Below are positions 1,000 through 36,684 of a stretch of 36,684 nt of DNA, in pieces. A program made the translations under genes and the position numbers. The DNA is from Phyllobacteriaceae bacterium Water-Bin73 (GTDB taxonomy: Bacteria; Pseudomonadota; Alphaproteobacteria; RS24). The notes under the pieces were generated by a model. It made no database searches. It worked only from the letters and a program-made list of their open reading frames with translations, and had not been told where the DNA came from. Location: positions 1-36,684 of the forward strand of contig FZLQ01000006.1 in NCBI GenBank assembly GCA_900197605.1, in the 5' to 3' direction. The number at the start of each line of letters is the position of its first letter. Positions within the stretch are counted from its first letter, which is position 1.

Positions 1000-1072
1000 C
1001 GCCCAACAGCTTCTGCTGTTGGCGACCCGTTTTGGTGCGAGGGCCGCATGGCCAAGCTTGCACCAAAATAGA
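1000..1072. repeat. structured intergenic repeat, copy A (two hairpins)
   Basis: Hairpin 1 has perfect 8-bp arms CCAACAGC (1003-1010) and GCTGTTGG (1015-1022) around a 4-nt loop. The spacer CGACCCG follows. Hairpin 2 has perfect 9-bp outer arms TTTTGGTGC (1030-1038) and GCACCAAAA (1060-1068), with an inner GGCC/GGCC pair (1042-1045, 1050-1053). The same arrangement recurs at 32387-32458 with changes in both arms, and its left half recurs at 36217-36250. It lies between the secreted-protein gene and the tRNA terminator. Confidence 0.8.
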
Positions 1073-1073
1073 G

Positions 1074-1109
1074 AAAAACACTTTGGCCGACCAAAAGTCG
1101 GACAAAGTG
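1074..1109 (-). terminator. intrinsic terminator after the tRNA
   Basis: On the minus strand a 12-bp stem with one internal mismatch (CACTTTG-t-CCGAC paired with GTCGG-c-CAAAGTG, loop TTTTG) is followed directly by a T run (1074-1078). It ends the transcript that leaves rpoD, panD and the tRNA. The first stem bases are the last two bases of the mature tRNA. Confidence 0.85.
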
Positions 1110-1181
1110 GGCCCGGCAGGACTTGAACCTGCGACCAATCCGTTATGAGCGGACCGCTCTAACCAGCTGAGCTACAGGCCC
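1108..1181 (-). tRNA. tRNA with CAU anticodon, probably tRNA-Ile2 (lysidine-modified)
   Basis: The cloverleaf can be drawn by eye. The acceptor arm is GGGCCTG with CGGGCCC (one G-U pair). The D arm is GCTC...GAGC, and the anticodon stem GTCCG/CGGAT carries loop CTCATAA with anticodon CAT at 1145-1147. The T arm is GCAGG TTCAAGT CCTGC, and the discriminator is A. CCA is not encoded. A CAU anticodon fits elongator Met, initiator Met or Ile2. The first acceptor pair is G-C, which argues against initiator. The variable-region TTGGTCGC resembles tRNA-Ile2, and location beside rpoD is a known alphaproteobacterial position for Ile2. As Ile2 it would need TilS to convert C34 to lysidine. It starts 11 bp after the panD stop and is probably co-transcribed with it. 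Confidence 0.85.
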
Positions 1182-19879: not shown

Positions 19880-20033
19880 AATTATTTAATCGTTGCAGCG
19901 CCCCGCTAAAAGGGCTTGGTGAGCAAAGCGAACCCTAGCCCGCCTTGCGCCAGCGACCGGTGCGCAAGCAAAGGAAGTCGGCTTTTCACAACGCACACGA
20001 AATCGCAGAATTATTTAATCGTTGCAGCGCCCC
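19880..20033. repeat. 25-bp direct repeat pair duplicating the 3' end of the methyltransferase gene
   Basis: The 25-base sequence at 19880-19904 is repeated exactly at 20009-20033 (period 129 bp). The right copy contains the last codons and stop of the methyltransferase gene; the left copy is free-standing, next to the SOS promoter. Weaker similarity continues for about 35 bp to the left of both copies. The segment between them holds a CTTGCGC/GCGCAAG hairpin and resembles parts of repeat family 2. Confidence 0.9.
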
Positions 20034-32324: not shown

Positions 32325-32327
32325 GAA

Positions 32328-32359
32328 AAAACCCCGCCTCATTGCTGAAGCGGGGTTTT
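32328..32359. terminator. bidirectional intrinsic terminator between ychF and petC
   Basis: AAAACCCCGC (32328-32337) and GCGGGGTTTT (32350-32359) form a perfect 10-bp inverted repeat. It gives GC stem plus T run on both strands, so it can stop ychF from the left and petC from the right. Repeat copy B lies between it and petC. Confidence 0.9.
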
Positions 32360-32386: not shown

Positions 32387-32458
32387 CGTCCAACAGCGTC
32401 AGCTGTTGGCGACCCGTTTCAGCGCATGGGCCATAGGCCAAATTTGCGCCGAAATAGA
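32387..32458. repeat. structured intergenic repeat, copy B
   Basis: The same two-hairpin layout as 1000-1072. Hairpin 1 has identical arms CCAACAGC (32390-32397) and GCTGTTGG (32402-32409) with a different 4-nt loop. The spacer CGACCCG is the same. Hairpin 2 has arms TTTCAGCGC (32417-32425) and GCGCCGAAA (32446-32454), with inner GGCC/GGCC (32429-32432, 32436-32439). Compared with copy A, several arm positions differ while pairing is mostly kept. It ends 1 bp from the petC stop. Confidence 0.8.
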
Positions 32459-35145: not shown

Positions 35146-36111
35146 ATGAATCAGCCGGTTTTCGACTTGCGGCATCGGCTACAAGGCATTGAAACTATTA
35201 CTGAATTTTTACGCGCCCCGCAATCTAAGGCGAGCGACGCAAAGGAAGATAAAAGCGTGGACGAAAATCTTTGGAATCACCGCAAACAAAGCGCCGCCGA
35301 TTGGTTTCGGTGCTTGCGTGACGACTTATGCGCGCGGCTCGAATCATTAGAGCCGGACGGCGCGGTTTTTGAGCGCAAGCCGTGGCAGCGCGGCGACGGC
35401 TCAGAAGATTTGGGAGGCGGCGAGATGTCGATGCTGCACGGGCAGGCATTTGAGAAAGCCGGCGTGCATATCTCCACGGTTTACGGCGAATTTTCCGAAG
35501 AGTTTAGAAAGCAAGTGGCCGGGGCGGAAGACGACCCGCGCTTTTGGGCGGGCGGCATTTCCGTCATCATTCACCCGACCAACGCCAACGCCCCGACCGC
35601 GCATATGAACACGCGCATGGTAGTGACGACCAAAGGCTGGTTTGGTGGCGGCGGCGACCTGACGCCGATGTTAGATGCGGCGCGCAGCGATACGCATGAG
35701 GATACGGTAGATTTTCACGCCGCCTTCAAAGCCGCCTGCGACAGCCATAATGCGGGCTATTATCCGCGCTTTAAGGAAGAGTGCGATAAATATTTCTTTC
35801 TGCCGCACCGCAATGAGACGCGCGGCACGGGCGGCATTTTCTACGATCACCTCGATAGCGGCGATTGGGACGCTGATTTTGCCTTCACGCAAGATGTGGG
35901 GCGCGCTTTTGTTGAGGTTTACCCTGAGATTGCGGCGCGGCGCATCGACCTGCCCTATGATGAAGCCATGCGCGACGAGCAAATGCAACGCCGTGGGCGT
36001 TATGTCGAGTTTAATCTTCTGTATGACCGCGGCACGATGTTCGGCCTGAAAACCGGCGGCAATGTCGAGAGTATTTTAAGCTCGATGCCGCCGATTGTTA
36101 AATGGCGGTAA
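35146..36111 (+). CDS. hemF: oxygen-dependent coproporphyrinogen III oxidase
   Basis: Converts coproporphyrinogen III to protoporphyrinogen IX using O2 in haem synthesis. The 321-residue protein has [69 protein letters not shown], and a C-terminal [19 protein letters not shown] and [14 protein letters not shown]. It ends right after VKWR, shorter than E. coli HemF, which I believe is common in alphaproteobacterial members. The N-terminus is somewhat long; a GTG near 35257 is an alternative start. The divergent petABC operon makes haem-containing products, which fits shared control, though no operator is visible. Confidence 0.93.
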
Positions 36112-36119
36112 AAGCACCC

Positions 36120-36138
36120 GCTTGCCCCACGGGCAAGC
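36120..36138. other. hairpin after hemF
   Basis: GCTTGCCC (36120-36127), CAC, GGGCAAGC (36131-36138) is a perfect 8-bp inverted repeat beginning 8 bp after the hemF stop. No T run follows, so it is not a classic intrinsic terminator; it may protect the mRNA end or belong to the repeat cluster next to it. Confidence 0.5.
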
Positions 36139-36144
36139 CCGGTG

Positions 36145-36193
36145 CGCCTTCCGCAAGCGAGGCGGCGGGGCGCAGTCCAGCCGCCGAGACGCC
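36145..36193. repeat. hairpin repeat family 2, copy E, after hemF
   Basis: The same 49-bp layout as 14039-14087: CGCCTTC, then CAAGCGAGG, a hairpin with arms GGCGGC (36161-36166) and GCCGCC (36180-36185), then GAGACG. The arms differ from copy D while the flanks match and the length is identical. Confidence 0.65.
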
Positions 36194-36216: not shown

Positions 36217-36250
36217 CGCCCAACGCCGTTAGGTGTTGGCGACCCGTTTT
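36217..36250. repeat. structured intergenic repeat, partial copy C
   Basis: Left half of the A/B repeat: arms CCAACGC (36220-36226) and GTGTTGG (36233-36239), followed by CGACCCGTTTT. It shares GTTGGCGACCCGTTT with copies A and B. The second hairpin is not conserved; a GGCTG/CAGCC pair occurs in its place (36252-36268). Confidence 0.7.
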
Positions 36251-36345
36251 CGGCTGCGAACGACAGCCCTTCCAACTTGTTGGCTTAGGCTGGAGGTTAC
36301 GCCTAGCCGGAAATAAACCTGAATCAAACTATCCGCCAACGCGAT

Positions 36346-36684
36346 ATGGCTTCGGGCTTCATCATCACTTATGGGCGTGAAATCGATGAGAACATAACCG
36401 TCGAAATCGCCCATGCACGATATGCAGACTCAAGTTCTGATGGCACAAGCTTTTTGGATACCGAATTAACGGCATTTGAAATTTCCGGCATCTTCCAATT
36501 TGACGGGGGAGCACCTTTTGTGCGCCTCGGCTATAGTGACGGCGAACTAAAAGCGCCAGTCATAAGATTGGATACGCTAGAAATTATAGGCAGCTTGGAG
36601 GAAAGCCAAAGCGGACCACTTTTTGGCGTCGGGTTCGACATTCCAATCAACGCGTCAAAATCCGCTATTCGGTTAGAATATAAC
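36346..36684 (+). CDS. outer-membrane beta-barrel protein, apparently 5'-truncated and running off the window
   Basis: From 36307 this frame is open to the edge of the window. The translation shows alternating polar/apolar strands and aromatic ends typical of a small Opa/OmpA-like barrel: ASGFIITYGREI, ITVEIAHARYAD, TAFEISGIFQFDGGAPFVRL, then GPLFGVGFDIPI and SAIRLEYN. There is no signal peptide or first strand: in-frame TAG codons at 36304 and 36286 close the frame upstream, and the first ATG is 36346. Either the gene lost its 5' end or the N-terminus lies in another frame through a frameshift. Codon use is more AT-rich than in neighbouring genes (ATA, CTA, AGA), which suggests a different history. 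Confidence 0.55.
   Translation, partial: MASGFIITYGREIDENITVEIAHARYADSSSDGTSFLDTELTAFEISGIFQFDGGAPFVRLGYSDGELKAPVIRLDTLEIIGSLEESQSGPLFGVGFDIPINASKSAIRLEYN

Follow-up and report, generated by a model that had tools for sequence, protein, structure and literature searches.

RIMEs (Rhizobium-specific intergenic mosaic elements) are intergenic repeats of Alphaproteobacteria, ~100 bp in length, which carry more than one palindrome per unit and exchange modules between units. The Rickettsia palindromic elements and the ERIC and Correia repeats are lineage-specific palindromic repeats without a known transposase. GTAG-tagged REP sequences often exceed 100 copies per genome (PMC2817692). The CGTC REPs of Alphaproteobacteria have no transposase and favour the ends of convergent or unidirectional genes (PMC3733652). 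Sinorhizobium meliloti transcribes its REP elements (PMC2873474), so that an RNA-level effect of the repeat described below would be plausible.

We analysed a stretch of 36,684 nucleotides, referred to as the window, which is contig C45 of genome G000 (1.79 Mb, 98.8% complete, 157 contigs). The original prediction described two copies of a repeat, A (1000-1072) and B (32387-32458), as sharing hairpin 1, the spacer and the layout of hairpin 2. This description was accurate. Each copy folds into two adjoining hairpins, and the two are 83% identical across the first 46 nt. The core GTTGGCGACCCGTTT occurs three times within the window. When up to 3 mismatches were allowed, 5 matches were found in the window against 1.2 expected, and none of 100 shuffled sequences reached 5; thus, a chance repeat was excluded. 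The RNA folding energies of copies A and B were well below those of shuffled sequences (z −5.4, 0/200 shuffles), and DNA folding of the same copies gave z −5.9 and −4.9. The arms of hairpin 2 had been reported to differ between the copies while most pairs survive, and indeed 9 of 9 positions pair in A and 8 of 9 in B, with a single A.C mismatch.

The site at 36217, taken at first for a half copy, proved to be a full-length unit of ~140 bp (36217-36356, copy C), in which an intact hairpin 1 is followed by a longer hairpin 2 and a conserved tail block (Table 1). A short-form copy in genome G007 (L023/L054) was considered as the orthologue of copy C and was rejected, as comparison of the flanks placed the two at different loci; therefore, the downstream sequence that they share is the conserved tail of the element. 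An open frame on the plus strand (36346-36684) has its start within copy C's tail block and extends as far as the end of the contig. It shows a weak likeness to an outer-membrane beta-barrel (PF13505, below cut-off), and the repeat may have displaced the start of this gene.

Table 1 Components of the repeat copies in the window, neighbouring features, and further copies in the same genome.
Feature	Position	Strand	Remarks
Copy A, hairpin 1	1000-1024	+	CGCCCAACAGC TTCT GCTGTTGGCG, bulged C
Copy A, unpaired spacer ACCCG	1025-1029	+	
Copy A, hairpin 2, short form, plus TAGA	1030-1072	+	TTTTGGTGC...GGCC GCAT GGCC...GCACCAAAA
tRNA gene adjoining copy A (context)	1108-1181	-	
Intrinsic-terminator-like hairpin (A-tract, CCCCGC...GCGGGG, T-tract)	32326-32359	.	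Between ychF and copy B; outside the element
Copy B, hairpin 1	32387-32411	+	
Copy B, spacer ACCCG	32412-32416	+	
Copy B, hairpin 2, short form	32417-32458	+	Ends 1 nt from the petC stop codon (petC on the minus strand)
Copy C, hairpin 1, intact	36217-36241	+	
Copy C, spacer ACCCG	36242-36246	+	
Copy C, hairpin 2, long form	36247-36313	+	Conserved GA/GAG internal loop (CGAC...GGAGG)
Copy C, conserved tail block	36318-36356	+	CCTGAATCAAA...CGATATGGCTTCGGG
Further copy in G000	C47:15281		Long form, at contig end
Further copy in G000	C47:14643		
Further copy in G000	C131:4943		
Further copy in G000	C105:24930		
Further copy in G000	C58:21769		Hairpin 2 only
Decayed hairpin 1 in G000	C122:7522		

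Covariance models and pattern searches identified ~40 copies, some of them decayed, in 12 genomes of a single genus of the PS1 clade (marine Alphaproteobacteria). With a 74-position model and at most the best 150 candidates scored per genome, the genomes of the genus contained 0 to 8 copies, with eight in G000. Further copies had been expected in the genome and were found, at about eight per genome and not in tens. A long-form copy (G000:C47:15317, L059) lies 3 nt from the contig end; thus, assembly breaks may hide copies, and MAG copy counts are lower bounds. The 16 genomes from the other five genera of the family contained zero copies when at most the best 150 candidates were scored per genome. 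No copies were found in 240 sampled genomes of the class, where two matches, both to purL-like coding sequence, were false. The matches in G125 and G236 (other families) and several weak (R1) matches share such a purL-like coding sequence (TVQVGDPF) and not the element. A GTDB-wide scan of ~85,000 species genomes returned seven loci, all within the genus, using an exact pattern that strongly diverged relatives may escape.

A weak match at G010:C3:296022, the sole in-gene match, lies within a long open reading frame and was discarded as a false positive, and a match in a viral contig (L101) was a chance match in repetitive coding-like DNA. The plasmid and phage collections gave no match to the element. 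A search of the window against Rfam at the gathering threshold returned nothing except the tRNA; copy A had no Rfam match at E ≤ 5, and copy C had chance-level matches only. A discrete small RNA, as a reading of the sequence, thus found no support. The literature search found no paper on PS1-clade repeats.

In the unit defined by comparison of the copies, a CCCG spacer joins hairpin 1 (25 nt) to hairpin 2, and some units carry an additional tail of ~40 nt; the total length is about 73-165 bp. Hairpin 1 has the form CGY(C/T)CAACNGC-loop-GCNGTTG(G/A)CG with a bulged pyrimidine and a loop of the GTTA/GTCA/CTTC type. The spacer is usually ACCCG and sometimes CCCCG, GCCCG or TCCCG. The sequence GACCCGTTT and the layout are conserved across non-orthologous loci. 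Hairpin 2 exists as a short form (in A and B) and as at least two long ones. At its base the short form is T-rich/A-rich, its G+C stem varies, and its apex reads GGCC-N3/4-GGCC. In its alignment (15 copies), 96.4% of the cells were paired, compared to 30-44% when the partner strand was slid; 10 of 24 pairs were changed on both sides, and the covariation score was not reached by any of 500 shuffles. In the long form (seven copies), 95.9% were paired and 12 of 25 pairs were changed on both sides, and an internal loop of GA opposite GAG was kept while the surrounding stems covaried. A third, multi-branched hairpin 2 was present in G001, G003, G004 and G010. The tail, AATAAACCTGAATCAAA...CGATATNGCTTCGAGG, follows hairpin 2 in 8-9 copies at unrelated loci, and an exact-pattern search of the genus matched it only beside units. 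We infer that short and long modules of hairpin 2 have replaced one another.

Gene junctions were classified with a simple codon-usage gene caller. Junctions with the element were convergent in 16 cases, co-directional in 12 and divergent in none, compared to 4, 52 and 17 in the flanks. After collapsing by locus, the numbers were 10, 4 and 0, respectively (Fisher p = 2e-7 vs flanks, 3e-4 vs window junctions). A stop codon is found within about 100-150 nt of most copies, and at the petC, OG5 and C105 loci the unit is located between the stop codon and a terminator-like hairpin. Copies A and B had both been assigned to gene ends, which is correct for B, located between the convergent genes ychF and petC, but not for A. 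Read on the minus strand, copy A follows the tRNA gene and precedes the start of the next one (466-987), with no protein-gene end, and is an exception to the placement at gene 3' ends. Hairpin 2 is flanked by TTTT on the 5' side and AAAA on the 3' side on both strands, and separate terminators adjoin. An intrinsic terminator was rejected, as these flanking tracts are the wrong ones and no T-tract follows either hairpin. An inverted pair of copies was observed after an rnpB-like sequence (RNase P RNA-like, named by eye) in G002 (L073, G002:C91:1702-1899) and G007 (L078, G007:C5); in G011, a single copy (L160, G011:C104) is on the other side of the same sequence.

Units at fixed loci turn over among species. 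At the ychF-petC junction, the unit is full in G000 and G007, truncated in G011 and absent in G001, G004, G005 and G010; in G002, only hairpin 1 is left, and it is fused to another repeat. G006, G008 and G009 carry a different repeat there and the unit was not seen, with the G009 contig ending ~70 nt from petC. The tRNA locus contains the intact unit in G000, a unit without hairpin 2 in G009, a remnant in G006 and none in G008. The junctions OG3 and OG8 contain the unit in opposite orientations between two sub-clades. Sets in opposite orientations are L061 and L056 vs L069, L163, L080 and L161, and L064 and L082 vs L065. At G000:C58:21769-21826 (L162), hairpin 1 is missing and hairpin 2 has the opposite orientation with respect to the tail block, possibly through in-place inversion of the palindrome.

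We counted 14 changes in the stems of orthologous hairpin 1 sequences, of which eight break a pair, four keep it as a wobble and two are true double compensations. Together with the covariation across copies, the eight pair-breaking changes indicate that the structure is kept across the family and relaxed at individual loci. Selection on structure, as originally proposed, is therefore upheld by the comparison across copies but not as host selection on each copy, as changes within loci were pair-breaking in eight cases and pair-keeping in six. The two double compensations, which arose within orthologous loci, point to some locus-level selection. No clean case of an empty and a filled site with a target duplication was found at the loci compared, because the spacers of the species are too diverged; thus, we can only infer insertion.

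A second repeat family with two hairpins was observed in the window at 36109-36193 (+) and about 19905-19984 (+). It has the form TAAAAGCACC-hairpin-GGTGCGCCTTGCGCCAGCGA...GAAGTCGG, with RGGGCT/AGCCC variants, and was also found at L068, L063, L075, L132, L136, L151 and L152. This repeat clusters near the first family and often starts on the stop codon itself, as in hemF, whose TAA forms its first three bases. At G007:C61:826-945 (L068), it is inserted into a copy of the first repeat, in the apical portion of hairpin 2, and in the orthologue at G002:C225 (L081), hairpin 2 is uninterrupted.

We compared the repeat with the known systems. By description alone, it resembles RIMEs and BIMEs in being dispersed between genes, in having at least two palindromes per unit and in exchanging modules, and it differs from them in its restriction to the PS1 genus, ~8 copies per genome, an exchangeable hairpin 2 and a conserved tail block. 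Likewise by description alone, the Rickettsia palindromic elements and the ERIC and Correia repeats differ in that the PS1 repeat was not found inside genes. Similar to REP/REPIN-RayT sequences, it is palindromic, extragenic and located near gene 3' ends, and it occasionally forms inverted pairs (G002:C91, G007:C5). Unlike these sequences, it has two hairpins per unit and no GTAG or GGAG tag in the aligned copies, and it remains below 10 copies per genome (at most the best 150 candidates scored per genome), whereas REP sequences often exceed 100 (PMC2817692). A search for a RayT gene had been suggested; the Y1 transposase domain (PF01797) was detected in 0 of 12 genomes of the genus and in 5 of 14 control genomes. 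Without a Y1/RayT gene in the genus, the classical REP mechanism is inapplicable. The proposed REP/BIME-like character thus applies to the kind of repeat, given the pair-keeping substitutions, the dispersed copies and the preference for gene 3' ends, but not to the RayT mechanism or the copy number.

Several other explanations were considered. Hairpins are abundant at gene ends, and the copies might be ordinary terminators or unrelated hairpins that coincide. This is hardly credible and was refuted, as the sequence GACCCGTTT and the layout are conserved at non-orthologous loci, with E values down to 1e-22 per genome, and as the shuffled sequences and the covariation exclude it. The repeat might instead be a diverged offshoot of the CGTC-tagged REPs, which are common among Alphaproteobacteria (Di Nocera 2013, PMC3733652). 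Hairpin 1 often begins with CGTC, and its core stem of 8 bp encloses a loop of 4 nt; more generally, the stem of 8-9 bp, the loop of 4-5 nt, the location at convergent and 3' gene ends, and the lack of a dedicated transposase agree with those REPs (PMC3733652). However, CGTC is not a conserved unpaired tag here: its CG pairs with the closing CG, in 15 of 15 short-form copies, its last C is also paired, and CGCT or CGCC stands in its place in many copies. The stem begins with C-G and has no A-T pairs at its start, it is followed by GCG NCCCG and not by a CCA tail, and intact units need the second hairpin as part of the unit. We therefore regard this origin as very improbable.

Two explanations concern the function or the mobility of the unit. 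It could be a cis-acting RNA maintained by the host, a double hairpin in the 3' untranslated region that protects mRNA ends or blocks convergent read-through. The strong bias to 3' ends and convergent genes, the units between stop codon and terminator at petC, OG5 and C105, the compensatory double changes within orthologous loci, and the GA/GAG internal loop of the long form, kept amid covarying stems, are in line with such a role. It is nevertheless unlikely, because at any given locus most species are without the unit, hairpin 2 is lost or replaced although the flanking genes stay, the same junction carries both orientations, and the anatomy is not that of an intrinsic terminator. Alternatively, the hairpin structure, the turnover, the insertion-like gain and loss, and the in-place inversion would fit a miniature element whose movement depends on a transposase that escaped detection or on a recombinase acting on single-strand hairpins, namely an IS-derived MITE or an attC-like site of an integron-type integrase. 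The half-site of attC is RYYYAAC, and the 5' arm GYYCAAC resembles it. However, the 3' arm GTTGRCG does not fit GTTRRRY, the AAC/GTT letters vary (AUC/GAU, AGC) while pairing is kept, and hairpin 1 is one continuous stem with a loop of 4-5 nt, which leaves no room for a second box pair. An attC site, which requires two box pairs (R''/R' and L''/L'), was thus rejected on anatomy. The genus is without a Y1 transposase, and no terminal inverted repeats, target duplication or adjacent autonomous copy were seen at the copies. A miniature element of this kind is distinctly unlikely.

The repeat is probably a genus-restricted, non-autonomous family of REP/RIME-like palindromes that is tolerated in 3' untranslated regions and whose structure is under constraint mainly during propagation. 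The family is new, and its kind of repeat is already known. New copies would arise either through a process of copying or insertion in which the hairpins are recognised in single-stranded form, DNA or RNA, or through recombination and template switching at palindromes, and the structure would be constrained mainly when the unit propagates. Afterwards, the unit would persist as a tolerated 3'-untranslated double hairpin, which may modestly protect or end transcripts, and would decay, hairpin 2 first. Several points count against a palindromic family of this kind: no clean pair of empty and filled sites was found, the copy number is low for a selfish repeat, no mobilising enzyme was identified, and the double compensations within orthologous loci hint at some selection there. 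A rather unlikely reading is that of a mobile hairpin element in two parts that, without RayT, would insert at the 3' ends of genes, spread via recognition of single-strand hairpins, swap its second hairpin (short GGCC, long GA-loop or multi-branched) and flip in place. If true, it would imply an undescribed mobiliser in streamlined marine Alphaproteobacteria.

The family adds a structurally clear repeat, supported by covariation, to the small-genome bacteria of the ocean, in which such repeats would not be expected in large numbers. Its palindromic copies turn over although RayT is absent, which is the problem raised, and still unsolved, with the CGTC REPs. The swappable hairpin 2 and the inversions at the same locus provide concrete loci for testing a mobilising mechanism.
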